Positions 5,487 through 28,874 of a DNA stretch of 50,372 nt are shown here, piece after piece. The position numbers and the translations under genes are program-made. Numbering within the stretch: position 1 is the first letter of the stretch; the number at the start of each line of letters is the position of its first letter. Source of the DNA: a virus. The stretch spans positions 1 through 50,372 of IMG/VR virus record IMGVR_UViG_3300023179_000160; one strand, 5' to 3'. The notes under the pieces are model-generated. The model searched no databases, was not told the DNA's origin, and worked only from the letters and a program-made list of their open reading frames with translations.

Positions 5487-5550
5487 CCATCAAATTCCCG
5501 TGTTTCACAATATACTAACTTTTTTTTAATAGTACAGAATAGCCTAAAAG

Positions 5551-5580
5551 AAATGACCTCTGCAGTATCAGAGGCCAAAA
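5551..5580 (-). terminator. Possible intrinsic terminator upstream of the adhesin gene
   Basis: A 6-bp stem (5557-5562 with 5569-5574, 6-nt loop) is followed on the minus strand by the T-rich stretch TCATTTCTTTT. It would end transcription of the small genes 5617-6019. The stem is short, so termination may be partial. Confidence 0.4.
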
Positions 5581-5616
5581 TTCTTCTGCTGAGAAGACTA
5601 AGTATTGAAAATTAGT

Positions 5617-5838: not shown

Positions 5839-5839
5839 G

Positions 5840-6019: not shown

Positions 6020-6036
6020 TTAAATTCTCCCAAAAC

Positions 6037-6786: not shown

Positions 6787-6810
6787 GTGAATAAGTATGC
6801 AATCAGGAGT
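6756..6810 (-). promoter_or_regulatory. Long inverted repeat enclosing the homing endonuclease start codon
   Basis: Perfect 15-bp arms (6756-6770 and 6796-6810) enclose an inner 6-bp stem (6773-6778 with 6785-6790). In RNA form the ATG at 6786-6784 falls at the tip of the nested hairpin and no free Shine-Dalgarno is visible. One arm is the coding sequence for ICNQE, and the other lies in the leader. T4 homing endonuclease genes are known to hide their ribosome sites in hairpins from long transcripts. A similar role here is inference. Confidence 0.6.
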
Positions 6811-6828
6811 GGAACCGACAAAATTGAG

Positions 6829-12027: not shown

Positions 12028-13890
12028 TCAGATCACGTTCATGTCCAAGACAGTCACGGTCCCGTAAAAATCACTGCGAACAGTTTTCTTCCCGTATCTT
12101 GTCATTACGCCCTTACGTGGTGTGAAGTCTTCGGGTGCGAAGATCGTCGGTGTCACGATGAGTGGAACGTATGGTGCGTACACGTAGCCCGTCTCGAGGT
12201 AGCTTCCGCCCTTGTAGCCGACGAGGATCTTGTTACGTGCGAAGTAAGGATCCTTGTAGACCGTGAAGCGGTTCGAGAGGGTACCGACTGCCTCTGCGCC
12301 GATCGTGAATGGCGAGCCGACCTGTCCCTCGCCGTCGAGCGAGAACTTGGGCTTGTAGAGGACCGAAGCCTCGAGGATCGTGCAGACGTCGGGTCCTGTG
12401 ACCATGAAGTTTGCCGAGCCGCGGAGGGTCTTGCGGTGGATGGTGTTGGCAACGTCGATGACGGTCTCGATGAGGGTCTCGTACCACTCACGGACTGTAC
12501 CCGTGAACTGTGGTCCGATCTGGTATGCATCGGCGAGGTTCTGGCGTGCGCCTGTGACCTTGTTGACGAAGCGACCAGGTGAGCGGCTCCAGTAGTAGTT
12601 GGCGCCGTTGGCCTGCGAGACGAGGTCGTTGAGGATCTCGCGGTCGATCTCGAGGGCGATCTGCTCCGAGAGGATCGATGTGAGCTCGACTTCAGCGTCC
12701 ATCGAGTGATAGGCGTTGAGGTCCTGTGCGAGCTCGGGGCTCCACTTGGCGCGGAGCTTGCGGGTCTCGGCTGTGATGCTGATGGCCTCGATCTTGATGT
12801 CGATCTCGGGGATGACGGGCGAGGGTGTTGCACCGAAGTCCGTCTCGAACGATGGGATCGTGACCGTGGCACCTGTGCCGCTGTCGACCGAGAGGGCCGA
12901 CGAGAGCGAGAAGGCGACGTCGACTGCACCTGCCGAACCTGAGACGAGGGCTCCATTGGCTCCCTTGACGAGCATGAGGACGTGCGTACCGTTGAGTGCG
13001 TCTGGTGTGAAGACACCGGCGTTCCAGTTACCGCGCTTGTTGAGGCGGCGGAGGTTGAGGACGCCTGTTCCACCCTGGTACGTCTCGCCCCAAGCTGTGC
13101 CTGGGCCTGCGACTCCCTGGAAGACGGCGAGCTGGTTGACGGCGAGCTTGTCCATGTTGTTGAATGACGCGCCGTTGATCGCGAGGACTGCGAAGGCGGC
13201 GTCGAGCGAGTTGCTGGCGAGAGCATTCTCAACGTCTCCGTCGTAATCGGCGAAGCGGGCGTTCGAACCGCTGAAGTCAGTGGCCGAGGCAAGCATGCCA
13301 CCTGATGTCCAGGTGTCGCCGTTTGCGCCCTTCCAGGCGCCGACCGCTGCGAACGAGAGGTTGAGGGCCGAACCTGTCACGCGGCTGTAGCCGGTGTTGA
13401 CGAGGTCGTACATACCGCCGGTGGCGAGCGATCCGCTCTGGACGCCCTTGCCGGTTGGGTTGTTGTAGAGCGACTGACCGCGGGTGTAGGTCGAGCCCGA
13501 CTCACCGGCTGGCTGACCGACGTTCGAACCGTAGGTGTAGTCCAGATAGAAGATGAGGCCCGAGGGGAGGCTCATTGGCTGGATCGAGACGAGCTCGTTG
13601 GCGACGAGGCCACCGAAGACTCTGCGAACGATCGGGAATGCGATGTTCGAGAAGCCCTGGATCTGACCCGAGCCGGCGAGGTTGCCGCCGCCCGACGAAA
13701 GGGCGTTCGACTCCTTGAGGACCTGGGCTGCCTGGTTCTCGAGGAGCTGGGCCATGACTTCACGGCGCTGGCCTTCGAGGCCACGGAGGAGACCTGTGCG
13801 GCTCCACTTCTCTGTGAGGCGGGCTCTCTCGGCTCCGACGTGCTTTTCGCGGATGCCCTGAGCGAGCTGTTCAAGACTAAAATGCTTCAT
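12028..13890 (-). CDS. Major capsid protein, T4 gp23-like
   Basis: 620 residues with AGGAG upstream. The region FPIVRRVFGGLVANELVSIQPM (about residues 82-103) followed by SLPSGLIFYLDYTYGS matches the start of the T4 gp23 core. The C-terminal half contains the expected long helices and ends with YGKKTVRSDFYGTVTV. Residues 1-60 form a charged helical propeptide. L-K-E at 58-60, followed by Ser-Asn-Ala, fits the prohead protease rule and predicts removal of 60 residues. The central 150-330 region is Gly/Ala/Ser-rich and may form the surface insertion. It is strongly GC-rich, in line with codon adaptation of an abundant protein. The scaffold and protease genes lie upstream. Confidence 0.92.
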   Translation of the reverse strand: MKHFSLEQLAQGIREKHVGAERARLTEKWSRTGLLRGLEGQRREVMAQLLENQAAQVLKESNALSSGGGNLAGSGQIQGFSNIAFPIVRRVFGGLVANELVSIQPMSLPSGLIFYLDYTYGSNVGQPAGESGSTYTRGQSLYNNPTGKGVQSGSLATGGMYDLVNTGYSRVTGSALNLSFAAVGAWKGANGDTWTSGGMLASATDFSGSNARFADYDGDVENALASNSLDAAFAVLAINGASFNNMDKLAVNQLAVFQGVAGPGTAWGETYQGGTGVLNLRRLNKRGNWNAGVFTPDALNGTHVLMLVKGANGALVSGSAGAVDVAFSLSSALSVDSGTGATVTIPSFETDFGATPSPVIPEIDIKIEAISITAETRKLRAKWSPELAQDLNAYHSMDAEVELTSILSEQIALEIDREILNDLVSQANGANYYWSRSPGRFVNKVTGARQNLADAYQIGPQFTGTVREWYETLIETVIDVANTIHRKTLRGSANFMVTGPDVCTILEASVLYKPKFSLDGEGQVGSPFTIGAEAVGTLSNRFTVYKDPYFARNKILVGYKGGSYLETGYVYAPYVPLIVTPTIFAPEDFTPRKGVMTRYGKKTVRSDFYGTVTVLDMNVI

Positions 13891-13930: not shown

Positions 13931-15847
13931 TCACTTGATTAATCCAGCGAGGCGTGCCCAACGATCAGCCTCAAATCCCTCGTTGAGGGTATTGGTGGCC
14001 GAGGCAGGACGTGCCGGGCGTGACGATGAACCGATGACTCCTCTGTCGGCCGACTCCGTGATCTTTGTCGTCGATGCCGAAAGAGTCTTCACGAGGCTCT
14101 CGTACACTAGCTTTACCTCACGCTCCGACTTCGCCTCATCGAGTCTCTCAATTACCTCAGCCTTTTGACGCTTCGTGAGGGACTCGTTCTGGAGAAGCTT
14201 GTTCGTGAAGAGCAGCTTCGCGTTGAACAGATTCGTTTCTGCCAACTTATTGCGGAGATTGGTCTCATCCGCCGACTTCTTTGGAGCACCATTGAGGGTG
14301 GCTCCCTTGCGGGTTGCCTCTGCGAGCATACCCTTGAGCTTGTTGGTGCGAGCAACAGACTCGTTGAACTTGGTTGCATAGTAGTTGTAAGCTTCCTTGA
14401 GATTATTGGCCTTCTTAGCAGCGGCGGCCTTGTCCTTTGGATTCTTCGACTTCTTGGCCTTATCCTGAACTTCCTTTTTCATCGCTGCAGCCTTCTTGGC
14501 CTTCTTCTTGGCCTCGGTTTGAAGAGCGAGCTCTGCAGAGATCTTGCGGCGGAGGGCCTCAGTGGGCATGCGGTCCTGCTTGTTGGTCTGAGGATCGTCG
14601 TCGCTGTGGTCTGTGGCCTGATGCTTCATGTCATCGCCTTCACCGTAGGCCTGATCGAGCTCATCCATTTCATCCATGGATTCTTCCATCTCGTCGAGCT
14701 CATCAAGTTCTTTCTTCACTTCCTCGTCATCTGACTCAGTGGTCAACTCAACGTCGGTGAATGGGTCACCGAGGTCATCGTCTTCAAAACCGTCGGCAAC
14801 TTCGCCGGCGCCATTGCCCTTTTCGGCATTCTTCGGCATGTCGGCGGCCTCGCGGAGGGCCTTCATGCGTCCAATCTCACGACGAAGCATGTTCTCGTCG
14901 ATCTCGACGACTGTGTCGTCGCTAAGTGTCTTTGATTCCATTTGATGTCCTTCTTCCTCAAGATCCTCGTCAGAGTCTTCGTCTCCTCCGAGGTCGAGAT
15001 CATCTCCACCCTCTTCGGACTCACCTTCATCTCCGCCCTCTTCGTCGTCGCCGAGGTCAAGGTCGTCGCCTTCCTCGCCGCCTTCATCACCAGACTCCTC
15101 TTCGCCTTCCTCACCCGTGATGAGGTCGACTCCGATCGAATCGAGGTCCAGTTCATCGGGCATGCCGGTGAGCTTAAGTGTTACGTCTGCTTCTGAAAGT
15201 GTTTTCTTGTTGGTCATCTTCTGCTCCATGAGCTGCTTTAGGGTTGAGTAGTGTTTTTCAAGAATAGACTCGTATGATTCTTTCTTGTTAGAGTCCTGCA
15301 TTTTGTTCTGCAAGTACGAATACGTATCTTCTACCTCAGAAATGAGCGTAGAAATCACATTTGAGTATGAATTGGTCTCTTTGATGATTCGACCTGCAGA
15401 AGAAATCAGATTAATTCTCTGACCGAGGTTTGCCAAACTATTTTCAAAAACCTTGGCAGGACCTTCAGGAGACATGTCACCAAGAGCATTTACTGCATCA
15501 AGGCTGAGCTCATATTGTTCTCCAGAATCAGCATTAAGAGCATCAAGGTCAAGTGTGACCTTTCCTTCTTCGTCGGGCATCGAAATAGCAGATGCAGCCA
15601 AATCCGAGTCACCAACAGAAGAAACAGCAGAAACTGGTGTAACTTCTTCGGGAAGCTCATCCATTAAAAGATTTTCTGGATTGGCTTCAAGCTCTTCAAA
15701 ATTTGACTCACCAAGAAGCTGATTCTCTATGAGATCTCTTATTCTTGGAGTAACTGCCTCAAGAAGGGCTCTTTTGGCATTGTCTTCTGCTACTTCCTTA
15801 AGCTTTTTAACGTCGGCCAAGGCCTCTTCATACAGTTGCTTTGTCAT
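13931..15847 (-). CDS. Prohead scaffold / core protein
   Basis: 638 residues, between the prohead protease group and the major capsid gene, where T4 has the gp22 scaffold. The N-terminus is helical (MTKQLYEEALADVKKLKEVA). The middle has a long Asp/Glu/Gly tract (about residues 235-300) and a second acidic tract. A lysine/alanine helix (KKAKKAAAMKKEVQDKAKK) follows, and the end is EGFEADRWARLAGLIK. Several hydrophobic-x-Glu sites (for example LLESN-like and LGES) would be protease targets. Large charged helical scaffolds degraded on maturation fit this well. The GC content rises sharply inside the gene near 15190. Confidence 0.82.
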   Translation of the reverse strand: MTKQLYEEALADVKKLKEVAEDNAKRALLEAVTPRIRDLIENQLLGESNFEELEANPENLLMDELPEEVTPVSAVSSVGDSDLAASAISMPDEEGKVTLDLDALNADSGEQYELSLDAVNALGDMSPEGPAKVFENSLANLGQRINLISSAGRIIKETNSYSNVISTLISEVEDTYSYLQNKMQDSNKKESYESILEKHYSTLKQLMEQKMTNKKTLSEADVTLKLTGMPDELDLDSIGVDLITGEEGEEESGDEGGEEGDDLDLGDDEEGGDEGESEEGGDDLDLGGDEDSDEDLEEEGHQMESKTLSDDTVVEIDENMLRREIGRMKALREAADMPKNAEKGNGAGEVADGFEDDDLGDPFTDVELTTESDDEEVKKELDELDEMEESMDEMDELDQAYGEGDDMKHQATDHSDDDPQTNKQDRMPTEALRRKISAELALQTEAKKKAKKAAAMKKEVQDKAKKSKNPKDKAAAAKKANNLKEAYNYYATKFNESVARTNKLKGMLAEATRKGATLNGAPKKSADETNLRNKLAETNLFNAKLLFTNKLLQNESLTKRQKAEVIERLDEAKSEREVKLVYESLVKTLSASTTKITESADRGVIGSSSRPARPASATNTLNEGFEADRWARLAGLIK

Positions 15848-15877
15848 GTCTATTCTTTCTGGGTTTCTAACTTTTAA

Positions 15878-16432
15878 TTATACTCCTGATTTACCGGGTT
15901 CGAGAGTCTTTGTAAGAGGAGACGATCCAACGACACCGCTTGTTGTGTGAGGTGACGTTGTTCCCGTGCCTGGAGCAGCTGGGACGTAATTGGGTTTAAA
16001 GTCTGCAGGAGAAAGACCTGGGTCGACGTCCTTGTCGATTCCTTGTGCTCTACCTGGTCCTGGAGATGAAACGTCGGGAACATATGCATTCGACGGATCT
16101 CCAGGATTTTTCCACTCAACGTCATTTAAATTGGGAACAGAAACAGTTGAAGTCCCTTGATAATTTAAGTTGACTCCTTCAGGAAAGATTGAAGAATCTC
16201 CTGCCTGCTTTCCATCGGCAGGAAGCAGTCCTCCAACTCCATTCGAGACATTTGATGTCGCTCGAGCCACTGCAGCAGCTGCAGCAGCCGAATTTGAAGA
16301 CGGTTCCTGACCACCATAAAAAGCTCCGGCGTCGTTAGGAGCCTTCTTGTTGAAGAGCTTCCAGAGAAGAGTGTTTCTAGCACTCGCCTTATCGACGTAC
16401 ATTGTATATCTACCTTTTCCTGGTCCGCTCAT
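15878..16432 (-). CDS. Hypothetical structural protein (184 aa), Gly/Pro/Ser-rich
   Basis: GGGAG precedes the ATG. It starts MSGPGKGRYTMYVDKASARN, then RNTLLWKLFNKKAP, followed by an alanine tract and long disordered Pro/Gly/Ser segments including VSSPGPGRAQG. A related SPGP segment ends the small protein at 23103-23405. Its position in the head block, between scaffold and the leader-bearing proteins, makes it a likely minor head component. No family function is known to me. Confidence 0.65.
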   Translation of the reverse strand: MSGPGKGRYTMYVDKASARNTLLWKLFNKKAPNDAGAFYGGQEPSSNSAAAAAAVARATSNVSNGVGGLLPADGKQAGDSSIFPEGVNLNYQGTSTVSVPNLNDVEWKNPGDPSNAYVPDVSSPGPGRAQGIDKDVDPGLSPADFKPNYVPAAPGTGTTSPHTTSGVVGSSPLTKTLEPGKSGV

Positions 16433-16467
16433 GACTTAAACTCCCTATTATAAATTAAAAATAAAAA

Positions 16468-16713
16468 TTAGATTTTCTTTGAGAGACGCTTCTTTGTCTC
16501 TTCAATCTTGGCAAGACGACGACGAAGTCTTGATTCTTCAATCTTGAGTGCCTTCATGAAGTCGATGTGCTTCTCAGCAGCCTTGTCTGTTCCGAACTCG
16601 TCCGCGTCGACCTCTTCTGTGTCCTTGGCGCGCTTGACGGTGTCTTCCATGTCACCAAACTTGGCGACTTCTTCTTCAATGATTCTGCGAAGTAATTGAG
16701 ATGTAAGCTTCAT
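16468..16713 (-). CDS. Small charged protein with capsid-targeting-like leader (81 aa)
   Basis: Begins MKLTSQLLRRIIEEEVAKFG, with the shared amphipathic leader ending I-E-E. The rest is a charged helix: DFMKALKIEESRLRRRLAKI is coiled coil with a lysine-rich tail. GAGGA precedes the ATG. T4 has small prohead core proteins (gp67, gp68) in this part of the head operon, and this may be an analogue. That is inferred from size, charge and place. Confidence 0.68.
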   Translation of the reverse strand: MKLTSQLLRRIIEEEVAKFGDMEDTVKRAKDTEEVDADEFGTDKAAEKHIDFMKALKIEESRLRRRLAKIEETKKRLSKKI

Positions 16714-16764
16714 ACTAAATCCTCATTATGGTCTAAGCGTAAGTATGCATATTTTTAAAGAATT

Positions 16765-17199
16765 TTATTTCTTTGTTGGCGATCCCATGAATGCAAGTGA
16801 AGCCCATTTTGAAGTAACATCATCTCCAAATAGGTCTTCTGGGTTGGCCTGAGAGACAACTTGTTCAACAAGTCCTCCTCCTGCCATTGGAATTGAATTT
16901 TTTCCTTCACCGGCTTGTAAAAATTTTGGAAGAGTAGATGCTGCAGTATCAGCAAGAATTGACTCCAAAATTTTATCTCCACCTGATTCTCTTCTGATGG
17001 CCTCTTTTAGCTGAGGTGTCTGCTGAGGGAAATTCTGACGTGGAGCCTGTCTCTTGTGACTGTCAGAAAGAGACGTTGAAACAGGAAATTGAGCCTTTGT
17101 AGGAAAAGACGAATGTGTCTTTTCTCCGAGGCCTTCACTCAGCAATTCAACTAGACACTCTTTGACAATATTTTTAAGATCAGACTTAGAAATCTTCAT
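16765..17199 (-). CDS. Small head-block protein with capsid-targeting-like leader (144 aa)
   Basis: Starts MKISKSDLKNIVKECLVELL, matching the shared leader with V-K-E at the predicted cleavage point. The middle is polar and disordered (QAPRQNFPQQTPQLKEA). The C-terminal part has ADTAASTLPKFLQAG, VVSQANPEDLFGDDVTSKWASLAF and ends MGSPTKK. GAGG sits 6 nt before the ATG, and the gene lies 8 nt from the protease stop. It may be an internal head protein; no specific family recognised. Confidence 0.68.
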   Translation of the reverse strand: MKISKSDLKNIVKECLVELLSEGLGEKTHSSFPTKAQFPVSTSLSDSHKRQAPRQNFPQQTPQLKEAIRRESGGDKILESILADTAASTLPKFLQAGEGKNSIPMAGGGLVEQVVSQANPEDLFGDDVTSKWASLAFMGSPTKK

Positions 17200-17207
17200 T
17201 AGTTACC

Positions 17208-17819
17208 TCACTTCTTAGACGACAAGATGTCGTTTACTATACGATCTATTCTGTCAGACTTATTGAATATATTGCGTAATTCTTTGGAATTTATTGTTCT
17301 ACCCTCAGGAAGCATGAATGCACCAGGAGTTGAAGGCTCTGAGACGTAGTCCCAGCAGATGAGCTGGAAATCGTCCTGAACGATGTGATAATCGCCTTGC
17401 TTCTTGACGGAACCGACGCCGCGCGAGGAGATTCCGAGTTTGACTCCGCTCTCGACGAGAGACTGAAGGATCTTGCCTGAAGGTGTGTCAAGTAGTTCGA
17501 CTGTTCCATATACGACGCCGCGGTCGAGGTAGGCCTCCTTAATGACGTGTGACACATTCTTGAGGTTGACCACGGATGAGTCCGGGTGGTCCAACTCACC
17601 GAGAGCACGGTTCTCAGCGATGAACTTCTGATAGTTTCTAATCTCTCTTTCAAGAACGTTCATCGGATAGATGCGACCGTTCTGATTGAGCGTGTCGGCC
17701 TTCTGAAGGATGCCCTTCATGACGACCTTGCCGTTGTTCTTGTCCCGAGACTCCTTGATCATGTCAGGAGTGTAGTCGAAGACCTCGTATGAGTTGAGTA
17801 GTTTTAGATCCTGTGCCAT
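17208..17819 (-). CDS. Prohead maturation protease, T4 gp21-like
   Basis: 203 residues from the ATG at 17819. An upstream in-frame ATG exists, but AAGGAG is correctly spaced only for this one and removes a 23-nt overlap. The motif ALGELDHPDSS holds the predicted catalytic His (about residue 78). LGISSRGVGSV holds the nucleophilic Ser (131-132). Both are hallmarks of the herpesvirus-type assembly protease fold used by T4 gp21. It would cleave scaffold, capsid and leader peptides after hydrophobic-x-Glu inside the prohead. It lies between the portal block and the scaffold, as in T4. The last 40 codons are AT-rich while the catalytic part is GC-rich. Confidence 0.9.
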   Translation of the reverse strand: MAQDLKLLNSYEVFDYTPDMIKESRDKNNGKVVMKGILQKADTLNQNGRIYPMNVLEREIRNYQKFIAENRALGELDHPDSSVVNLKNVSHVIKEAYLDRGVVYGTVELLDTPSGKILQSLVESGVKLGISSRGVGSVKKQGDYHIVQDDFQLICWDYVSEPSTPGAFMLPEGRTINSKELRNIFNKSDRIDRIVNDILSSKK

Positions 17820-17823
17820 GACA

Positions 17824-18678
17824 TCACTCCTTCGTTTCCAGCTCATCTCTGAGCTTTGAGTAGAGCATGAAGCGAGTCACCGTCTCGTCGTCCACGAGCT
17901 CGAGGCTCTCGCCGAGGAGAGTGCTCTTGGTCTCCTCTAACTTGTTCTTAAGATAATCGTTTTGAACTTCTGTCTCGTAGCCGTCGATGAGGCTCACGAG
18001 CTCGGACTTGATCTCCTGTAACTTGAGCTTGATGGAGGTCTGGTCCTCTGAAGCAGTCGAGTAAGCATATGCTTTTATGAGAGACTTCTGTTGTTCATTG
18101 AGAACACCGTTGTATTTCTCATTAAGTTTCTTTGTCATAACTTTCATGAGAAGGCGTGCAGTACCAGAAGTGTCTTCAGAAATTGTCGAATCTTCTTTTT
18201 GAACCTTCTCGGTGACCAAATGTTTCATGATCTGATCTTCATATTGAGCCACCCTGTAAAGATCTTTATTGTCTGAACGCCATTCATTTAAAAGAGTTTG
18301 AATTGTTGCAAAAGTTCTATATTCTCCGATATGATGATCATAAAAATTTTCATCATTAAGAACGTGATTTATGTTTCTAATAAGAATAGATTTTTCTCGA
18401 TCAAGTTTGTCTGAATCAATTTTTGAAACTGCATTTTTAGCTTCACTTAATATTGATGCAGCAGTATGCTCTGACGACACTGTTGTCTTTGCAATTGAGT
18501 TCATGAGCCGAAACTCTTTATAGAGCTCAGTTCCGGGCTTAAAATGACGCTTTAAGATTTTTAAAGCCGAAGATGATTTCTTTTTATCATCTTCAACAAT
18601 AGATCTTGAGATGGTCCTCACGAGAAACTCGTAGATGAGGAGGCTGTTTCTTCTCTTGTTATGCTTGCTGGCGGTCAT
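17824..18678 (-). CDS. Alpha-helical protein between portal and protease (possible prohead core protein)
   Basis: 284 residues, almost fully helical and charged, starting MTASKHNKRRNSLLIYEFL. Landmarks are LKILKRHFKPGTELYKEFRLMNSI, ILIRNINHVLNDENFYDHH and a C-terminal ETVTRFMLYSKLRDELETKE. It ends 1 nt from the portal start region and is followed by the protease. T4 places its core proteins gp67 and gp68 in this interval, but no sequence similarity is evident to me. Base composition alternates: GC-rich ends and an AT-rich middle (about 18060-18600). Confidence 0.68.
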   Translation of the reverse strand: MTASKHNKRRNSLLIYEFLVRTISRSIVEDDKKKSSSALKILKRHFKPGTELYKEFRLMNSIAKTTVSSEHTAASILSEAKNAVSKIDSDKLDREKSILIRNINHVLNDENFYDHHIGEYRTFATIQTLLNEWRSDNKDLYRVAQYEDQIMKHLVTEKVQKEDSTISEDTSGTARLLMKVMTKKLNEKYNGVLNEQQKSLIKAYAYSTASEDQTSIKLKLQEIKSELVSLIDGYETEVQNDYLKNKLEETKSTLLGESLELVDDETVTRFMLYSKLRDELETKE

Positions 18679-18679
18679 T

Positions 18680-21600
18680 TCACTTGCTCCCGTCGTCGTC
18701 TATTATGAGGACTTCTTTGTGTTCGCGTGCGTCGGCCTCATTGAAATTATCTGATTCTTTGAGGATTTGTGCTGTTTGATCAGTATTTTTAACAAAATTC
18801 TTAAATCTGTTAGACTGAACCATCTGTCTTAATGACGAAACTACATCGTTGCCTATAGGTGTTTTGTAAATGGTCCGGTTGGCAGATTCTCCAAATGGAT
18901 TTCTTACATAAGAAGATGTCCACTCTTTGTCGTAAGGGTCAGAATACGATTTGTTGTCATAATCAGTCATCTTTTTTAAGTCAGGCATGTGAGTTTTTGC
19001 AGGCCCATTGTGACGTATTCTGGATCTGTTATAGAGGGCTCTATCAAGCTGACGTTGCGCCTTAACAGGAACTTCAACGTCCTTAAGTGAAAACTTAACA
19101 GGGACATCTTCGTCATCAGGATCGTCTCCGGCCGTCAATAGGTCGAGGTAAGGATTCTTTTGAGTTGCATCATCTCCTGCAAAGAGATCTCCACCTTCTT
19201 CCTCACCTTCTGCACCGCCGGCTTCGGCTTTTTCTTCACCCGTCTCTTCTTCTGATCCACCAGTTTCTTCTCCACTGCCGCCAGCAGGTTCAGCACTCTC
19301 AATTGCTTGATCGACCAATTTTTCTTTAAGGCGCTGATCATCAATTTCCTTGCACTGATCATCATTGAGGCCCCAGATCTCCTTGCGAATGAACTCCTTG
19401 GACATCTGTCCTTCGGGCGCTGAACCTGCAATCTCGAATTTGGATCTCCACAGTTCAAGTTTCTGTTGCTGGGCAACAGTGGATGGGTTAGACATACGCA
19501 GGGCAAAGTTCTGTAAATCTTCAGAATCAAAGCCATGGGCATAAAGGTGAATAATAGCGAGTTTATTCAGCTCAGCCACGATTGTCTTCTGAATAACGTT
19601 GATCGTGCGAGAGAACCTGATGTCTTCCTGGGCGAGTGTGGCCTTGCTGGAGAGGGCTTCATCGTAACCGAGGTAGGCACGAGGAATCTTGAGGGCTGCG
19701 AAGAGCTTCTTCTGGATGTAAGCAACATCTTCTACTGCCGCAGTGTTTTGTCCACCTGCAAGAGTGTCGATGCGAGTGCCGGAATCCCCGCCTCTGACGG
19801 GGATGAAGTAGTCCTCATCGACAGAGAGAGGATTGTAACGAAGATCAACTCGCCCCGTGTTTCTGTCGATGACCTGAGAGGATCGAAGGTTCTTCCTCTG
19901 TTCCTCAACGTACATGGGAACGTTCTCGGGAGGAATGTTGGCAACATCGATGTAGAACACTCTTCTCTCGGGAGCTCGGACAACGCGGTACACCAACATG
20001 GCATCCTCGATGAGGATCAATTGGCGCCAGATCCTGCGTGCCGGTTCGATGATTGATGAACCGTAGGGAAGGAACATGTCGTTGCCGAGGAGGCGGAAGT
20101 GGGTGACTTCCCAGTTCTCTAAGGTCCTGTTTCCGAGAGTGACCCAACGGTAACGGACCGCCATGGGGTCGTTTGGATCGTAGTTCTCTTCGCGCTCTAT
20201 CTCATTGACGGGAATGGGAAAGGCACTGATCACACCGTGCTCAGGTGACACGTCGTTGTAGAGGAACATGTCTCCGTACTTGACGAGGTTGCGAACCCAA
20301 GAGCGGAGGTTGAACTCCACGTTGAGCGTGTTGTAGAAGAGGTCTTCTAGAATCTCTCTGATCTTCTCGTTGTCCGAGTAGATGTGGAGGACACGACCCT
20401 TTTCGTCCTGGGCGCAGTTGTGAACAAAAACATAAGAATGATTGTGAGGATTTGTGGATGCTGCAAAATTATGCCAGTTCCTTACTTCAAGGTCAAATAC
20501 ATCTTCTACACCGTCTTCTTCAATGGAAATTATTCTATGATTGGTTCTAGAAAGATAATCGTCCCAATTCTTGTAACCGCTATTTTCAAGTGCAACGTAT
20601 GCTTGCTTTCGAGTTATTCCAATGTCTCGACATGCTTTTGACAAAAAACGACGAAGATCAACAGATTCTGGTTGACACTTTATCCAATCTCTGATATTAC
20701 CAACTATTAATTGGGAATCAACGACATATTTCTTTGACCATTTTTTAATACCAAAGTCGGTCATCAATCGCTTCATATCTGTGTCACGAATCGGAATTTC
20801 TGAACAAACTTGTTTTTTGCTCTTTCCGGACATGATCCAGCAAATGATTTGATCTTTCGACACGCTTCTTATGAAATCAGGTCTCCAGCGACCATTCTTG
20901 TCGCCAAATATCTTTTCACCTTTACCGTACATTCCGTTCTGTGAACCTTTGCGTCCAAAAAGACGTTTTTTAGTTTCAGTATCGTAACTGGAAAATACTT
21001 CATTTCGTCGTTTCAAGAAAAAATCAGTAAACCCGGGCGTTTCATGTAGTCTTTTTGCATGATCTTTGAAGATTCCTGTCATCTTTTCAGCATACTTGCG
21101 ATCAACTTTCCACTTGTAAGAGTTGCTTGAAGCATGTAGTAATTGATGATCCTTTCGAGACATAAAACTAAGATTTGAAGGGTTGTTGTTAAGTTTGTTA
21201 AAATCTGCGTGATGAACGACGCCTTTCTCGTTAGGATTCGTGTGTTCTGCGACAATCCTATGTGTGTATTTCCATCCTGAAGATGTTAAAACTTTTTCAT
21301 ATCCGTCTAACTTGTCTCCAAATGCTGTAGAAGATGTAGACGTATGTAAAGATCTAATACTGTCTCCGACTTTTAGATCTCTTGCATGAACATATCGACC
21401 GTCACTGAAGAGAACCCTATGGTTGTCAGTCAGCCTAATGTAAGTTCCATCGTCAAATGTAAACTTATAGAGTTTCTTTGTTCCTGTCTTTACGGCGTAC
21501 GTAGCATGCCCAGGAACTATTTCATTTTTCTCTAGATCGTATGAGTAGACCCAAAAATCTTTTTTTTCCTCTTCATAAATCTGTTTAATTGTCGGTCTTG

Positions 21601-23056
21601 TTCCATCAAGAAGAGGAACAACAGTGTCTCCGGATAGACAAGTTTCATCTGCATATATATCGAGGGCGGCTGCCAACTCAGGAGTGTTGTGAGAGATGAC
21701 AGTGTCTGTTGCAAAGTTCTTGTAACCATCTACCGTGAGGTCATAGAGAGGAATCACACCGTGAGGTTCCACGGAGACGACTTTGAGGTTGTCATAGGAA
21801 GACGAGAAGTCTGAGTAGTTCTTGTAACCTCTCTCTTTGACTCTTCCCTCAATGACGTGAACTGTAGTCCCTAAGGACTCTGCTAACTGTTTGTTCGACA
21901 TTCCCTTAGAAAAATGCGAACATATTTTATCAAAGGTAATTGATCTGACATAACGAGGATTCTTCTCACCTCTGTTGTCCCATCCACCGTTGCACCAGTC
22001 TGGGTTGTATGCACGGGCAAATGTTTCGAAGTTCTGGTAACCGTGCTTGCGAAGTCTGCATTTGATCACGTTTGGATCTGTGTCAAGAACTTCGCACATC
22101 TTGCGAGAGTTGAAACCTGTCCTCTCTGCAACTTCGAGGATCCTTCCGAATGTGATGTCTTTTCGCTCGGCGGGATTGTTCTCGGACATGAACTTTGAGT
22201 GGTTCGCCTTAAACTGTTGGATCCACTGAGAGTTGCCTTCTGACCACTTGACACCGTTAATGATCTTGGAATGAAGTTCTCGATGTGCCTCTTCGGTCAT
22301 GACCTCGAGGTTCTCAGGTCGATTGTCGTGCTTCACGAAGTTCCTGTGATGGACCACCTCACCCTCATCAAGAGGAGAACCCTTGATCATCTCACCGATC
22401 ACTCTGTGCTCAGCGACCCATCCGTTCATCTTGGACCGCCTGTCCATTGTATAGATCCATCGATAACCTTCTCCCTCTTCTTTGCATCCACTGAAGAGGT
22501 CTCTCCTGTAGAAAGGCATCATCGCATCGCCAGGTTTGAGGTCCTCAATCTTGCAGAACGTCCCATCGCGCTTCATTAGGCGATGATTCGGAGTGCCGAT
22601 GATCTTCTGACCATTGTCAAAAGTGACTGTGAAAGATTCATCTACTCGAGTCTGTCGGGCTTGCTTTCCAAGTGCAGGGACGATCCTCTGCAGGTTGTGA
22701 TCATAAGCATACACGAGGAACGTGTGGTCAGGCCTTCCTTCGCATTCTTTTGCAAGTTCCGTGAGAGTCTTGTATCCACCCGGAACTGCAATCTTTGTGT
22801 CACCATGGAGACAATATTCCATCTCTGCGAAATCTTGATATCTCATCAATCTCTCAGACAAATTGTACGCGTTCGCCGTGATGGTGGCGTATGTGGGTGC
22901 CATCGACTTCTGAAAGAGGAGGGCACCAGAGCTCTTTGTCTTGTCAGCAACTGCTATGGTAGTGTCGAGCGCCCTGATCTTTCTCTTGACCACGGGACCA
23001 CTTCTGAATAACTTTGTGAGCTTCTGAAAGAGGTTTTGTTCTTCTTTTTTCGCCAT
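18680..23056 (-). CDS. Portal protein, T4 gp20-like, interrupted by two inteins
   Basis: 1458 codons. Removing the inteins at residues 82-457 and 473-880 leaves a mature portal of 674 residues. Joined exteins read YQDFAEMEY-TPELAAALDIYADET-CAQDEKGRV, a conserved T4-type portal stretch. Downstream come LRSWVRNLVKYGDMFL, FRLLGNDMFLPYGSSIIEPARRIWRQL, YRVVRAPERRVFYIDV and YLGYDEALSSKATLAQEDIRFSRTI. All fit gp20-type portals, which form the dodecameric DNA channel. The C-terminal end has an acidic Gly/Glu tail near mature residues 470-530. Splicing must occur twice to make a functional protein. It lies between terminase and prohead core genes. Confidence 0.93.
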   Translation of the reverse strand: MAKKEEQNLFQKLTKLFRSGPVVKRKIRALDTTIAVADKTKSSGALLFQKSMAPTYATITANAYNLSERLMRYQDFAEMEYCLHGDTKIAVPGGYKTLTELAKECEGRPDHTFLVYAYDHNLQRIVPALGKQARQTRVDESFTVTFDNGQKIIGTPNHRLMKRDGTFCKIEDLKPGDAMMPFYRRDLFSGCKEEGEGYRWIYTMDRRSKMNGWVAEHRVIGEMIKGSPLDEGEVVHHRNFVKHDNRPENLEVMTEEAHRELHSKIINGVKWSEGNSQWIQQFKANHSKFMSENNPAERKDITFGRILEVAERTGFNSRKMCEVLDTDPNVIKCRLRKHGYQNFETFARAYNPDWCNGGWDNRGEKNPRYVRSITFDKICSHFSKGMSNKQLAESLGTTVHVIEGRVKERGYKNYSDFSSSYDNLKVVSVEPHGVIPLYDLTVDGYKNFATDTVISHNTPELAAALDIYADETCLSGDTVVPLLDGTRPTIKQIYEEEKKDFWVYSYDLEKNEIVPGHATYAVKTGTKKLYKFTFDDGTYIRLTDNHRVLFSDGRYVHARDLKVGDSIRSLHTSTSSTAFGDKLDGYEKVLTSSGWKYTHRIVAEHTNPNEKGVVHHADFNKLNNNPSNLSFMSRKDHQLLHASSNSYKWKVDRKYAEKMTGIFKDHAKRLHETPGFTDFFLKRRNEVFSSYDTETKKRLFGRKGSQNGMYGKGEKIFGDKNGRWRPDFIRSVSKDQIICWIMSGKSKKQVCSEIPIRDTDMKRLMTDFGIKKWSKKYVVDSQLIVGNIRDWIKCQPESVDLRRFLSKACRDIGITRKQAYVALENSGYKNWDDYLSRTNHRIISIEEDGVEDVFDLEVRNWHNFAASTNPHNHSYVFVHNCAQDEKGRVLHIYSDNEKIREILEDLFYNTLNVEFNLRSWVRNLVKYGDMFLYNDVSPEHGVISAFPIPVNEIEREENYDPNDPMAVRYRWVTLGNRTLENWEVTHFRLLGNDMFLPYGSSIIEPARRIWRQLILIEDAMLVYRVVRAPERRVFYIDVANIPPENVPMYVEEQRKNLRSSQVIDRNTGRVDLRYNPLSVDEDYFIPVRGGDSGTRIDTLAGGQNTAAVEDVAYIQKKLFAALKIPRAYLGYDEALSSKATLAQEDIRFSRTINVIQKTIVAELNKLAIIHLYAHGFDSEDLQNFALRMSNPSTVAQQQKLELWRSKFEIAGSAPEGQMSKEFIRKEIWGLNDDQCKEIDDQRLKEKLVDQAIESAEPAGGSGEETGGSEEETGEEKAEAGGAEGEEEGGDLFAGDDATQKNPYLDLLTAGDDPDDEDVPVKFSLKDVEVPVKAQRQLDRALYNRSRIRHNGPAKTHMPDLKKMTDYDNKSYSDPYDKEWTSSYVRNPFGESANRTIYKTPIGNDVVSSLRQMVQSNRFKNFVKNTDQTAQILKESDNFNEADAREHKEVLIIDDDGSK
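20417..21640 (-). mobile_element. Portal intein 2 (408 aa) with HNH homing domain
   Basis: Starts at Cys 473 (CLSGDT). Block B is LTDNHRVLF. Block F is VFDLEVRNWHNFAAS. It ends VFVHN before extein Cys. HNH signature: VVHHADFNKLNNNPSNLSFM with a later H-x3-H. A NUMOD-like SQNGMYGKGEKIFGDKNGRW segment and a repeat ending GYKNWDDY follow. It is AT-rich compared with the flanking extein, which suggests independent arrival. The insertion point is 15 residues after intein 1. Confidence 0.93.
21686..22813 (-). mobile_element. Portal intein 1 (376 aa) with HNH homing domain
   Basis: Starts at Cys 82 (CLHGDT, block A). Block B is GTPNHRLM. Block F is LYDLTVDGYKNF. The end is VISHN followed by extein Thr. 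The central part has an HNH signature VVHHRNFVKHDNRPENLEVM with a later His. After it come two related helix-turn-helix-like repeats ending GYQNFETF and GYKNYSDF, probably for DNA recognition. All class-1 splicing residues (Cys1, block-B His, penultimate His, terminal Asn, +1 Thr) are present, so it should splice and cleave. Confidence 0.93.
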
Positions 23057-23102
23057 TTTTCTATTGCCTCTCCATTAGGGAAGAGGCCCTTGGTGTTCTA
23101 CT

Positions 23103-23405
23103 TTACACTACTTCTTTCTTCTCAGGTTTAAGAGTCACCTTTTTTGGACCAGGAGAAGTGACGTCAACATACTGCATCGGCGATGCAACAACTCTCTTCA
23201 AGAGCTGCTCAACTCCGTCGAGGTTTGATCCAATCTCTGCCTTGACCTTCTCACTGGCAGACTCCTTGAAGCTCTCTATTGCATTGAGGAGCTTTGTGGC
23301 TCCACTCATAATTTTAGAAGCAGAATCTTCATCTGCTCCCTCGTAAATGTTCTGCAATTCCTCTTGAATGATCTTCTTAAGTCTCGATATACCGATCTTG
23401 GCCAT
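23103..23405 (-). CDS. Small head protein with capsid-targeting-like leader (100 aa)
   Basis: The frame opens further upstream, but the ATG at 23405 has AGAGGA before it and avoids overlapping the terminase. It begins MAKIGISRLKKIIQEELQNI, with the shared leader and I-Q-E at the cleavage position. Then come helices (SKIMSGATKLLNAIESF, LDGVEQLLKRVV) and a tail VDVTSPGPKKVTLKP. It sits between terminase and portal genes. It may be a packaged internal or prohead core protein. No known family assigned. Confidence 0.7.
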   Translation of the reverse strand: MAKIGISRLKKIIQEELQNIYEGADEDSASKIMSGATKLLNAIESFKESASEKVKAEIGSNLDGVEQLLKRVVASPMQYVDVTSPGPKKVTLKPEKKEVV

Positions 23406-23436
23406 TTTGTCCTCTGGTGCGAATATATGTATCTGG

Positions 23437-25053
23437 TCACTTAAAGAGCCAAGAAAAATCTGAAACATCTACGTGTTTAATGTCTTCCGGCTTTCTTGGC
23501 TGATGCAATCTGTCAGGCGTAAATCCTTGTATTTGTGCATTGGGGACAGGTCTTACCTGATTAATACCACCAGGTAGATCATTTATTTTTCTATTTCCTA
23601 CGGCAGTAGCTTTTAGCATTGCCATCGCCATTTCCATTCCCTGCTCATTGCTCGAAGAGTCGCCTAATGATATCCATACACCTATTGCAAGGCTCATGAT
23701 CAAATCATCGTGGGCATCTTTTGAAGCTTGAGCTTTTGCACCGTTCCAAATGAATGCCTGCAATTGATCGTAAAGTCTCTGAGAATATGTTTTCAGACGT
23801 CCATTTCTTATTGATTCTTCAAGTTTTGCAAGAATTTGATTTCTTGTTTTTGCCTGCGTAGAAAATCCAGGAAGAGCTTCTGGGTCTTTTGGCCTGTAGT
23901 CAAAAACATTTCCTCCGCTTGAAGAATAATAAAGTCTTGGGTAACCTTCGTCTCTCAGCTTAACGCAGGTAAAATAACCGAAAGTGTTTTGCTCTGGACA
24001 AATTAAGGCGTCATTGTATCTTTTTCCATAGTGAGAAAGAATGTCAGCAAGCCTATCGGGAGGAATTTTTCCCATAAATTCTGCACACACTTCACATGTC
24101 TCATAATCTATGACGTGAAAAGTAGAAAAGTCAGAAGAGTCACCTCTGGCAACATCAGAAGATATGACGTACCTTCTTCCCATTTCTGGGTTTTTCCATA
24201 CCCAGACTCCATTTTGATGTCCTTCTTTTGAAATTGGTTGAGCTATTGAGGCTCTCAATTTTTCAAAATCTACGGGCTGTAAAAATGTGTCTCCCGAAGA
24301 AACGAAGTCACAAAGAAACTCTTGGGCTATTTGTCTTTTTGTTAAGTTTCTTGTCTCTTTGTCGAACCATGCTTGATCATGTTCTGGATGCACATCCCAT
24401 GAAAGTCTTATGGGATTAAAGTCGTTAGCACCAGTTTCTGCTTCTGTCCACAGCTTATAATATTGTCCTCCAACTCCGTTAGGTGTTGATAGAATGATAG
24501 CAGAACCACCAGTAGACAGTGTTGGATAAAGAGATGTCCAGATTTCATCAAAGTCTCTGATGAATGCCGCCTCGTCGACTATAAGAAGAGCCAAAGCTTC
24601 AGAACGACCTGCGTCTGGAGATGTTGGAACGGCAGTAATAGAAGATCCGTTATCGAATCTTATAGATTGTTTTGTTGGTTCAAATTTAGTAAGAAGAAGC
24701 CACGGAGGAAGCCCGTCCAGCATTGTCTTCACCTTCTTGATGAAGTTGATTGCTGTGTTGAGCTTTGTTGCGATGACAAGGATGTTCTTGTCCTTCTTGA
24801 AGATCGCATACCAAACGACATAGGCAGCAGAAACCGTGGAGAGTCCCAGCTGCCTAGACTTTAGAACAATATTAAAACGATGTTGCTGAAACTGCTTTAC
24901 ACAGTCGTCCTGAAAACCATATGTTTCAAAAGGAATAAGCCCTCTTAATTGATGTTGGATCTTGCAATACTTCTTCATGAAGTATGTTGGATCTTTACCG
25001 CATTTTAATATCTCGGCGACTACTGCTTGTCTTGACGGTGTACCAGTTGTCAT
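23437..25053 (-). CDS. terL: Terminase large subunit (DNA-packaging ATPase/nuclease)
   Basis: 538 residues. The adenine and Walker A region is VLKSRQLGLST (63-73), a deviant Walker A with the lysine shifted upstream, as in many phage terminases. Walker B is LALLIVDEAAF (154-163). The coupling motif is LSTPNG (about 188-193). RNase H-like nuclease motifs follow: SSDVARGDSSDF, CPEQNTFGY and DAHDDLIMSLAIG. All catalytic elements of a T4 gp17-type motor are present. It overlaps the stop of 25050-25439 by ATGA. No intein is present. The Walker A segment (about 24690-24860) is GC-richer than the rest of the gene. The C-terminal 70 residues form a Pro-rich tail. Confidence 0.95.
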   Translation of the reverse strand: MTTGTPSRQAVVAEILKCGKDPTYFMKKYCKIQHQLRGLIPFETYGFQDDCVKQFQQHRFNIVLKSRQLGLSTVSAAYVVWYAIFKKDKNILVIATKLNTAINFIKKVKTMLDGLPPWLLLTKFEPTKQSIRFDNGSSITAVPTSPDAGRSEALALLIVDEAAFIRDFDEIWTSLYPTLSTGGSAIILSTPNGVGGQYYKLWTEAETGANDFNPIRLSWDVHPEHDQAWFDKETRNLTKRQIAQEFLCDFVSSGDTFLQPVDFEKLRASIAQPISKEGHQNGVWVWKNPEMGRRYVISSDVARGDSSDFSTFHVIDYETCEVCAEFMGKIPPDRLADILSHYGKRYNDALICPEQNTFGYFTCVKLRDEGYPRLYYSSSGGNVFDYRPKDPEALPGFSTQAKTRNQILAKLEESIRNGRLKTYSQRLYDQLQAFIWNGAKAQASKDAHDDLIMSLAIGVWISLGDSSSNEQGMEMAMAMLKATAVGNRKINDLPGGINQVRPVPNAQIQGFTPDRLHQPRKPEDIKHVDVSDFSWLFK

Positions 25054-25439
25054 GCAATCTCAAAAATTACCTTACGTCTATAGTACGCAGTTCTCTTTGG
25101 ATTGTGAACATTAAAATTGATTATCTCAAGAGAATCTGTTGAACTACCTTTTTCCTCTTTTAGCATGAGTGTGTCACCTGTCAGCTGCTTATAAGAGTCT
25201 TTCACAAACTTGACATGCTCTGCGATTACTGACTCTGATTCTTCTTGGCAGCTTCTCTTCATGAGAATCATTTCTTTTTCGGAAACGAAATTCATAATAA
25301 CCTTATAGGAAGCAACTAACCTAGTCTCACCCATGAATGAAAATTTGACAGAATAAGAAGAGGATTTTGGCGTTGAGGATCTTCCCCAAGTTGAGTCAAT
25401 GGCTTGTCCGAGTGCGTTAATATCAATTGTCTTGGGCAT
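25050..25439 (-). CDS. Hypothetical protein upstream of terminase (129 aa)
   Basis: 129 residues with beta strands near KFSFMGETRLVASYKVIMNF, a long charged helix (KEMILMKRSCQEESESVIAEH) and an end HNPKRTAYYRRKVIFEIA. It is translationally coupled to the terminase by ATGA. The small terminase subunit is usually found in this place, but I see no helix-turn-helix or central coiled coil typical of it, so that identity is unproven. No other family recognised. Confidence 0.6.
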   Translation of the reverse strand: MPKTIDINALGQAIDSTWGRSSTPKSSSYSVKFSFMGETRLVASYKVIMNFVSEKEMILMKRSCQEESESVIAEHVKFVKDSYKQLTGDTLMLKEEKGSSTDSLEIINFNVHNPKRTAYYRRKVIFEIA

Positions 25440-25455
25440 TATAGGGGCTCCCCTT

Positions 25456-25737
25456 TTAAATATGATCGATCACGTATTTGTTCCTCACTTCTTCCGAAGT
25501 AGGTCTCCAACCTTTTTGCCACTTTTCTTTATTGGGATATGCCCAAGTGGTTGAACATGAGTCGCAACAGTTGAATTTCAAAAAAGAGTCTTGGTCGAAA
25601 GAGCTTCTCATTATTCGATTGCAAACTGGACAGAAGATAGGTTGATGTTCCTGTCTGTCTTTGGGGGCTATCACGTAAAAGCCCGACGGGTTTTCAGATA
25701 TAATTCTATTTTCTGTATAGTCTTTCCAGGTTGTCAA
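25456..25737 (-). CDS. Zinc-ribbon protein (93 aa)
   Basis: Starts at TTG, whose TTGA overlaps the stop of the SbcCD-like gene, so translation is coupled. Two Cys pairs (FCPVCN and CCDSCSTTW) form a zinc ribbon of about 22 residues between the pairs. The N-terminus MTTWKDYTENRIISENPSGFY and C-terminal GWRPTSEEVRNKYVIDH are helical. Small phage zinc ribbons often act in transcription or nuclease complexes. A specific role cannot be assigned. Confidence 0.65.
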   Translation of the reverse strand: MTTWKDYTENRIISENPSGFYVIAPKDRQEHQPIFCPVCNRIMRSSFDQDSFLKFNCCDSCSTTWAYPNKEKWQKGWRPTSEEVRNKYVIDHI

Positions 25738-28700
25738 TTGAATTCCACCTTTGAGTCTTTTTCAATTTTTGTAATTTCAAGAACATGGTCTGCAGAATCT
25801 TTGATTCCATCGACGTGAGTTATGACAAGAACAACCCTAAAATATCTTTTTAGAGAAGTTAAAAATCTTCCGCATGCCTCAACTGAAGAACTGTCAAGAG
25901 TCCCAAATCCTTCATCGATTATTAAAAAATCTGGTCTTGGAAGTGAAGAAATATTTACCATTGCAACCCTTAATGCAATTGAAGATATTGTTTTTTCCAT
26001 TCCGCTGCAAAGCTCAATTATTCTTCTTGAATCACCATAATTTATGTAGATTTCAAGTGAATCTGTGTCTTCATCAAATTCTACTTCAACAGTAAAATCT
26101 ACAATTCCTTGTAAAATTTGAGAAATTTCAGAATTAATGACAGGTAGTTGAGACTTTATGACGAGAAGTGGAATGCCCTTTTTTGAGAATGCATTTGAAA
26201 TAAGTTCATGAACCTTGATGTTTTGAAGCAACAGGTCTCTCGATCTTTTTTCTTCTTCTAGTTTTTCAACAGTAGACTGAATTTTTCCAAGCTGAGATGC
26301 TATCTCAAGCTTTTTTAAATCGTAGTCTTTTGTCTGGTTAGTTATTTCTTGTATCTTTTGCTTTATTGTAATGACTTCTTCAGCTTCTTCGCTGTCAATT
26401 GATTTCTTTAAATTGTCAAGTTTTTTAAGAGATTCTTCAAGTGAAGAATTTATTGTCTCACAAGAAGAAGAAATTTTCAGCAATTCTGTTTCTTTTTTTG
26501 ATATCTCAAAACCAAACTTTGTAAAAAGCTGCAAAGCCTTCTCGTGTTTTTCAAGTTTTTCAGAAACTGATTCATCTTTAGACTTTTCAAGAGCATCCTG
26601 GGCATCATTGAGAAGCTCTAAAGCCTTGACAGTCTTTTTCTCTTGCTCAGGCATTTCGGCCTTATTTAAATGAGCATCCTTTATGAATTTGCATGAAGGA
26701 TAATCGTCTCCGCACGGAACTTCATCTAATATCTTTAGAGATTTTTTTTGTTGCTGAAGCAAAGAAAGCTCTTTGTCGTGAACATGCTTTAGTTCAACAA
26801 TTGAATTTTGTAACTTTCTTTGAGACTCTTGTTTATCTTTTAGGGCTGCAACATCTATTGAATCAATCAAATTCTGAAGAACAACTTGTTTATTCTGAAG
26901 AACTCTGATTTCTTCTTCAAGAGTCTCAATCGACTGCTTACAAGAACTAAATTTCTCTTTATAAGACAAAACTTTTTTTTCTTGAAAGTCGACATCTTGT
27001 TGGGTAACAGGAGATGCATTTAGCTTTGAAAGATCGGCAGTTAAAAGAGAAAGAGAAGAACGATTCTCTTCTATTTTTTCGTCAATTTCTTTTAAAGATT
27101 CTTTAAGGCGTGCTGAAGTATTTAAATTTTGCTCTTTTAGGTGGTCCCAATCTCTTTCTGGGAAATTCTTTAGCTGAGACTTGACAGACGAGACTTCTTT
27201 GGAAGAAAGATCGTGCATCTTGTCAAAAATGTCAAGGTCCAAAAATTTCGACAGTATTGATCTCCTCTTGGTGGATCCTTGCGCAAGAAATAAATTTGTC
27301 TCTCCTTGCGCAGAAAGAGAAGTCATCAAAAAATCTTCATTGCTTCCAAAAAGTGACTTAATTGTTTTTTCTGTGTCAACTCTTTGTTCACCACAAAGGT
27401 CTTCCATTTCTTCTTCACCTGGCTTCATCCTAAAAAGATTTAAAGCCGTACTTGCGCTTACAACACCTTTTTTGTTGACTGTTTTGACTGTCTGGCGTTC
27501 TATTACGTAAGTTGATCCATCGTGATCAAGAATTGCCTGAGCAGAGCAATAGTCTTTTCTAACATTGCAAATGTTGATATTTTTTATGGGTCCTCTGTCT
27601 GTAGAATTGAAAAGTGAATACATCAAAGTGCCGACAATTGACGACTTTCCAGTTCTGTTGGGACCAAAAATTCCAACTATTCCATTTAATTTTTCAAAAT
27701 TGATGATGTTTCCTTCTCCATAAGAGAAGAGATTGTTCCATTCAAGCCTTCTTAAAGACCACTTGGAATTTCTGCAAACGTCTTCTGAAGTAGAAGCTTG
27801 TGAAAGATAAACTTTTGAAGTTTCAGAAAGAGCTTCTAGTTCCTTGTCTGAAATCTTTAGGTCTCTATAATAGTCTTTTAGAAGAGCAGAAACAACATCG
27901 GGAGATCTTAAATCTGTTTTTGCAATAGAAGCAGTAGTTGTTTTTACGACCTGCTGATCAACTTGAGAACCTGTTTTATAGGTAACCTCAGATGCCTCTT
28001 TGGAAGATTTAAGGGCTTCAGAAAGAACATGTACTTCGTCCTGAGTAATTGAAGTATTTGATCTAATTCTGAATCGAGAACCTTGGGGGTAAGATTTTGC
28101 AATCTGAATTATCTTTTCTGTATTTCCTTCCCAGTCTATTGTTACAAATGGCTTAATGTTAGGAAGAGGCCGGTTGACTACAGTCCAATCTGAAGAGCTT
28201 TCAATATTCCAAAGATAATATCCGTGGTTTAATTCTTCGGCATAATTCTGTTGGATCGGAGTCCCAGGATACCCTATCCACGGTTTTTCGCTTCTATATC
28301 CAAGGAACTGCTGCCTGTGAATGTCACCAAGCATGCAAAAATCAAAATCTTTAAAGAAGTCAACGGTAATTCTATCTTCTTCAATGTCCCATCCAGTCTC
28401 AGTGACAGATCCTCTAACAGGGCCATGAAATGTGGCTATGTTGACATCTCCAGAGACTGGGCGTACATCTTTCCAACCTTCCTCATCAAAACATGAGAAA
28501 ACGCACCAGTTGTAGCCTGGTGCGAAGTTATAGGTCCCGCTCTTCTTGTAGAGGAAGACACGCGGATTCTTCATGGCCTCCACGATTGGAGTAACGGCGT
28601 CCTGACGCGATAGATTTGAGAGATTCCCGTCATGATTTCCCAGGACCATGTGGACAGGTGCAACCTTGGACATCTCGTTCAGCCACCAAGTTAGGAGCTC

Positions 28701-28874
28701 GATGTACTCAGGAGATATTCCTGTCACCTTCGTGTGGAAGATGTCACCGCCGATGAAGATGTGATCAACTTTTTGTGACCTACAATCGCCAATGAAAGCA
28801 TTAAAAACCTGTCTATACTCGTCGTGGCGAGAAAGTGCTCGGATATGAACGTCCGCAGTGTGTGCTATACGCAT
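25734..28874 (-). CDS. Fused Mre11/SbcD nuclease and Rad50/SbcC ATPase (T4 gp47-gp46-type)
   Basis: 1046 residues. Residues 1-250 have phosphoesterase motifs ADVH, GGDIFH, GNHD, TFHG and GDIHRQ. A linker leads to the Rad50 part: Walker A GPNRTGKSS (404-412), long coiled coils with a widened hook Cys-x6-Cys (CGDDYPSC, about residue 710), signature LCSGMEK, Walker B FLIIDEGFGTLD and H-loop ITHVD. All motifs look intact. In T4 the two subunits (gp47 and gp46) are separate. Here they are one chain. It would resect DNA ends for recombination-dependent replication. The first 125 codons are GC-richer than the rest. Confidence 0.93.
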   Translation of the reverse strand: MRIAHTADVHIRALSRHDEYRQVFNAFIGDCRSQKVDHIFIGGDIFHTKVTGISPEYIELLTWWLNEMSKVAPVHMVLGNHDGNLSNLSRQDAVTPIVEAMKNPRVFLYKKSGTYNFAPGYNWCVFSCFDEEGWKDVRPVSGDVNIATFHGPVRGSVTETGWDIEEDRITVDFFKDFDFCMLGDIHRQQFLGYRSEKPWIGYPGTPIQQNYAEELNHGYYLWNIESSSDWTVVNRPLPNIKPFVTIDWEGNTEKIIQIAKSYPQGSRFRIRSNTSITQDEVHVLSEALKSSKEASEVTYKTGSQVDQQVVKTTTASIAKTDLRSPDVVSALLKDYYRDLKISDKELEALSETSKVYLSQASTSEDVCRNSKWSLRRLEWNNLFSYGEGNIINFEKLNGIVGIFGPNRTGKSSIVGTLMYSLFNSTDRGPIKNINICNVRKDYCSAQAILDHDGSTYVIERQTVKTVNKKGVVSASTALNLFRMKPGEEEMEDLCGEQRVDTEKTIKSLFGSNEDFLMTSLSAQGETNLFLAQGSTKRRSILSKFLDLDIFDKMHDLSSKEVSSVKSQLKNFPERDWDHLKEQNLNTSARLKESLKEIDEKIEENRSSLSLLTADLSKLNASPVTQQDVDFQEKKVLSYKEKFSSCKQSIETLEEEIRVLQNKQVVLQNLIDSIDVAALKDKQESQRKLQNSIVELKHVHDKELSLLQQQKKSLKILDEVPCGDDYPSCKFIKDAHLNKAEMPEQEKKTVKALELLNDAQDALEKSKDESVSEKLEKHEKALQLFTKFGFEISKKETELLKISSSCETINSSLEESLKKLDNLKKSIDSEEAEEVITIKQKIQEITNQTKDYDLKKLEIASQLGKIQSTVEKLEEEKRSRDLLLQNIKVHELISNAFSKKGIPLLVIKSQLPVINSEISQILQGIVDFTVEVEFDEDTDSLEIYINYGDSRRIIELCSGMEKTISSIALRVAMVNISSLPRPDFLIIDEGFGTLDSSSVEACGRFLTSLKRYFRVVLVITHVDGIKDSADHVLEITKIEKDSKVEFN

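Follow-up and report, generated by a model that had tools for sequence, protein, structure and literature searches.

The portal gene of a T4-like phage encodes two complete class 1 inteins, each with its own HNH domain, at the two edges of a conserved 15-residue stretch. It very probably acquired them in two independent homing events by separate site-specific HNH lineages, with two independent cis-splicing reactions then restoring the portal. The gene lies in the window, by which we mean the whole 50,372-base stretch analysed here, an IMG/VR contig from a virus of bacteria with a T4-like head cassette. The two adjacent inteins, already called in a first-pass annotation, are correctly identified, uncommon and of a kind already known. 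The portal family as a hot spot for inteins is a stronger result than the window's pair itself.

The reading frame of the portal gene is uninterrupted across all 1458 aa (Table 1), and removal of both inteins leaves a T4-like portal of 674 aa. The PF07230 match, together with the gene order terminase-portal-protease-capsid, identifies it as a T4-like portal (gp20). Searches of the precursor with Pfam returned, besides Portal_T4, two stretches each of Intein_splicing (102 bits) and HNH_3 (69 bits). Each intein by itself cleared the Pfam cut-offs for these two families, and in each the TIGR01445 match (intein_Nterm) starts at residue 1, which excludes chance as the source of the two calls. The inteins span 20417-22813, with C82, N457, T458, T472, C473, N880 and C881 as key residues. 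The junctions first annotated, Cys82...Asn457/Thr and Cys473...Asn880/Cys, were exact in residues and coordinates, as were the lengths given for the middle extein and the spliced portal. The annotation had also proposed that both inteins invade a conserved stretch; the stretch is indeed conserved, but the inteins flank TPELAAALDIYADET rather than lying inside it. Intein a sits before T458, at the upstream edge (site EMEY/T), and intein b after T472, at the downstream edge (site DE(T)/C), 45 bp from the site of a. Sequence profiles align to the T4 gp20 structure only beyond residue 226-229, and both intein sites fall outside this region.

Table 1. Features of the portal gene and of the head cassette in the window.
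Feature	Position in window	Strand	Evidence
Portal (gp20-like) gene, encoding a precursor of 1458 aa from an ATG	18680..23056	-	ORF; PF07230 (Portal_T4) E 2.3e-70; phrog_213 portal
N-extein, residues 1-81	22814..23056	-	matches intein-free relatives as far as ...EMEY
Intein a, residues 82-457 (376 aa), CLHGDT...VISHN/T, class 1	21686..22813	-	junctions, profiles, Hint fold
HNH_3 domain within intein a, at residues 136-177 of the intein	22283..22408	-	PF13392 E 1.9e-11
Middle extein, 15 residues, TPELAAALDIYADET	21641..21685	-	contiguous with flanks in intein-free relatives, e.g. L106
Intein b, residues 473-880 (408 aa), CLSGDT...VFVHN/C, class 1	20417..21640	-	junctions, profiles, Hint fold
HNH_3 domain within intein b, at residues 124-166 of the intein	21143..21271	-	PF13392 E 5.6e-9
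C-extein, residues 881-1458 and stop	18680..20416	-	PF07230 across precursor residues 895-1245
Large terminase (T4 gp17 type)	23437..25053	-	PF03237 E 3.7e-15
Prohead protease (T4 gp21 type)	17208..17846	-	PF03420 E 2.1e-26
Major capsid protein (gp23)	12028..13890	-	PF07068 E 1.2e-75

Three further features of the window were observed, all on the minus strand. A tmRNA gene is predicted at 6828-7198, with the tag ANDNGYAALALAA. An ORF of 1046 aa at 25734-28874 combines a calcineurin-like phosphoesterase with following AAA/SbcC-like domains, a fusion of the SbcD-SbcC (gp47-gp46) type, and a PhoH-like ATPase is fused to a PIN domain at 45131-46534.

Both inteins have the residues of class 1: in intein a, Cys1 (C82), a TPNH block B and the end SHN/T, and in intein b, Cys1 (C473), a TDNH block B and the end VHN/C. 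The block B His is invariant in the family alignment of a (A1), and the block B Thr and His are invariant in that of b (A2). In place of the block F His that is usual in many inteins, a has a Lys (YKNF), which is invariant in 22 aligned family members. AlphaFold models had a mean pLDDT of 84 for a and 78 for b (pTM 0.65 for each; the stretch after the HNH domain of b is poorly modelled), and Foldseek comparison with solved inteins assigned both to the Hint fold (probability 1.00; best E 1e-6 for a and 1e-8 for b). The Ssp and Npu DnaB inteins (1mi8, 6frg, 4o1r), which differ in being mini-inteins with DnaB hosts, were among the closest solved structures for both models; further matches included Npu DnaE and PI-PfuI. 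The first-pass call of two complete class 1 HNH inteins in a phage portal is supported.

The portal protein is an essential ring of twelve subunits, so inteins within it must splice cleanly. Decay of one or both inteins, which would yield a portal fragment without function or the relic of an HNH domain, is very unlikely here, even though related pairs do decay (one relative, L104, has a and b without HNH, and another, L100, has two mini-inteins). The nucleophiles, block B Thr and His, terminal His-Asn and HNH motif are all found in both inteins of the window, the frame is open, and there is no sign that either is split or inactive. Purifying selection acts on intein a, with a dN/dS, where measurable, of 0.03-0.05 against four relatives, HEN part included (a rough estimate, as dS is near saturation), and both splicing and HEN therefore appear to be under constraint. 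The extein is 94% identical to that of intein-free relatives, which argues that the portal is still in use.

To map insertion points, we aligned portal ORFs to the 674-residue spliced sequence with a splice-aware method. A search with the C-extein, which does not select for presence of a or b, collected 79 close portals: 45 were intein-free, 31 carried a, two had an intein at position 76 and one at position 140, and none of the 79 carried an intein b. Both inteins are absent from L106 (extein 94% identical), whereas L005 (94%), L004 and L007 carry a only. At the DNA level, L005 aligns to 15534-20416 and 21638-24539 of the window, with only b missing, and L106 to 15801-20416 and 22814-28868, lacking both inteins; L106 does have the 45-bp middle extein, which is too short for a separate DNA match. 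The breaks coincide with the intein edges within a few ambiguous bases, and precise absence of inteins from homologous alleles was found in L005, L106, L114 and others. The relatives without b are all more distant, at about 73-92% DNA identity.

Joining of an intein from another phage into the contig during assembly is extremely unlikely. The contig is metagenomic and the GC3 of intein b (0.31) lies below that of the exteins (0.53-0.59), but the inserts keep the reading frame to the base and have exact splice residues, and the same pair occurs on an independent contig (L104). Nor does the GC3 of b mark it as foreign: most genes of the window have values of 0.24-0.38, and those above 0.5 are confined to some structural genes, so we rejected a foreign origin inferred from low GC3. 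Across the window's genes GC3 ranges from 0.24 to 0.79, with the capsid gene (12028-13890) and some others far above the rest. A search of genome contigs for a cellular donor of b gave distant relatives only (best segments 23-36% identity, among 79 loci listed).

The exact pair at the same sites was found in 2 of all portals judged, the window and L104, whose pair consists of mini-inteins of 218 and 145 aa that both lack HNH by length and sequence. The pair is therefore uncommon but not unique. The first-pass annotation had regarded two inteins this close in a phage portal as rare; this holds for the exact pair, which only one other virus shares, but does not extend to near-uniqueness. Both sites are occupied in other phage portals: that of a in 31 of the 79 close relatives (with relatives of a encoded at 70 loci, up to 92% identical), and site 95/96, where the b lineage inserts, in dozens of divergent phages.

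To trace the ancestry of the inteins, we built a tree of 93 Hint domains (quick search, SH-aLRT support), in which inteins cluster by site, with 16 label changes for 15 sites versus 60 in shuffles. All site-81 inteins, including a, form one group (98*). The window b has L104 b as its sister (95*), and the two adjoin 24 further site-95/96 inteins (group support 94). Judged by these groupings, a and b, which are 25% identical to each other, each belong to their own site-specific lineage. The site-96 intein of another portal, L102, is of a lineage distinct from that of b, so at least two invasions of the site are probable. Positions 95 and 96 are one residue apart in a variable loop, and their distinction may be alignment noise.

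Intein a has turned over recently. L005 and L006, which carry a, match L106, which does not, at 99.6-99.7% identity along one flank of the site and 97.2-97.5% along the other. Presence of a does not track the extein tree, across which it changes 29 times (shuffled mean 31), with at least nine changes forced by starred branches, counted under strict coverage and with de-duplicated loci. Such a pattern is what an intein that homes often would leave, and points to an active nuclease. In the clade a is common and b rare, and b probably joined an a-carrying allele.

A different account would treat a and b as a coordinated unit, spreading together through co-conversion across the 45 bp of the middle extein, and splicing in a set order that times portal assembly. 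We consider this improbable. The three b-lineage carriers of the window's clade (the window, L104 and L503) all carry a as well, and gene conversion at one site would be expected to cover 45 bp readily. The association between a and b is weak, however (p about 0.07, n=3), and only suggestive of co-transfer. Over the Hint part, identity between the window b and L104 b is only 47-50%, and the a copies of these viruses find their nearest kin elsewhere. No co-conversion tract is visible beside b, and the middle-extein codons of the window are as close to those of b-free L004 as to those of L104. Joint spread is also doubtful because neighbouring active HENs co-home poorly in haloarchaea, the sole experimental case we found (PMC10643990). 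With regard to splicing, every flanking residue that each intein needs is there without the other. Removal of one intein leaves the neighbours of the other unchanged (Tyr/Thr for a, Thr/Cys for b), so each junction keeps its own -1 and +1 residues and either order should work; as read from these residues, the chemistry does not demand ordered splicing, which the first-pass annotation had raised as a possibility.

Under the preferred reading of two independent homing events, EMEY/T would be the homing site of a and the adjacent DE(T)/C that of b, and the gene would be translated as the full-length precursor. Each intein would then excise itself by the class 1 route: Cys1 would undergo an N-S acyl shift, transesterification would follow at the +1 residue (Thr for a, Cys for b), and Asn cyclisation and then ligation would yield the spliced portal, which would assemble. 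The low identity between a and b should limit mispairing of their halves, which would lose the middle extein. Each HNH domain would be predicted to cut empty alleles in co-infecting phages, thereby spreading its own intein.

Examining T4-like portals more broadly, we found insertions at sites 76/77, 80/81, 86, 92, 95/96, 140, 216, 229, 243, 293, 318, 351/352 and 354. Each is occupied in one virus or another, and there are a few further sites; positions come from one alignment method, and those of single-case sites may be off by at least one residue. The tightest spacings among these portals are 0 (L102), 11 (L503 and L511), 13 (L100) and 15 residues (the window and L104), so the window's spacing is not the tightest. 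In L102 (IMGVR_UViG_3300010379_000183, 4562-7096, minus strand), two of the five inteins of one portal ORF abut at site 293 (...SNSWILLHN|CFQGST...) with zero extein residues between them; the first resembles the site-293 inteins of L081, L188 and L291, and the second that of L060 (50%). L503 (1713-7898) and L511 (899-7084), contigs of two different metagenomes with nearly the same portal, encode a 2484-aa ORF with five inteins, at sites 81, 92, 140, 293 and 352. They include a variant of the window's pair, in which a is followed by a b-lineage intein (46% identical to the window b over the first 144 residues) inserted four residues upstream of the window b's site, giving an 11-residue middle extein. 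L100 (LR756508.1, an unannotated record of a 484-kb uncultured phage) has three portal inteins, among them two mini-inteins (150 and 141 aa) separated by 13 residues.

Inteins at site 140 (L102 7556-8779, L121 5663-7000 and others) resemble class 3 inteins, which have a non-nucleophilic residue 1, a block F Cys and a block B Trp: Pro1 and the block F Cys occur in 14 of the 14 listed, but the block B Trp, two residues after the His, is inconsistent, being found in only some and replaced by Tyr or Phe in others.

It is possible, at a little under an even chance in our judgement, that the portal gene ranks among the most intein-loaded families known, with about a dozen sites, several of them within 20 residues, up to five inteins per gene, back-to-back stacking in L102, where Cys1 of the second intein also serves as the +1 nucleophile of the first, and a build-up of neighbouring lineages, a and b among them, through one single homing event after another. 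The family offers many empty, single and multiple alleles, some with nearly identical flanks, that make homing, co-homing interference and multi-intein splicing testable. The window's pair, two divergent HNH inteins around a short middle extein, is a handy test of splicing independence and of whether the 45-bp segment permits co-conversion.

The window's arrangement has several counterparts in known systems. The haloarchaeal MCM-a and MCM-d inteins (PMC10643990) likewise look active for homing and share one gene, in which they occupy adjacent conserved sites with a separate intein lineage at each, and alleles carry either, both or none; unlike the window's, these inteins are LAGLIDADG rather than HNH inteins and reside in a cellular helicase rather than a phage portal. 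In experiments on these inteins, having two active nucleases side by side impeded their joint entry into an empty allele, so that most double alleles derive from alleles that already had one intein (PMC10643990), a pattern that the window fits. Mycobacteriophage inteins (PMC5050341) also occupy phage packaging genes, with six in a portal protein and seven sites in terminases, but that portal belongs to a cluster C1 phage, and we saw no multi-intein portal described in PMC5050341. Close pairs are known from archaea, 85 residues apart in T. kodakarensis Pol and 48 in P. abyssi CDC21 (PMC8966425). In each, as in the window, a single ORF holds two inteins around a short middle extein, but that extein is three to six times longer than the window's, a comparison that covers these two spacings from mostly non-subscription literature. 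In the same, mostly non-subscription search, the highest count found for a single gene was that of Trichodesmium ribonucleotide reductase, for which the citing passage of PMC1635734 gives four inteins. That gene resembles the portals in holding many inteins, yet it has four together with group II introns, whereas the portals of L102 and of L503 and L511 have five inteins.
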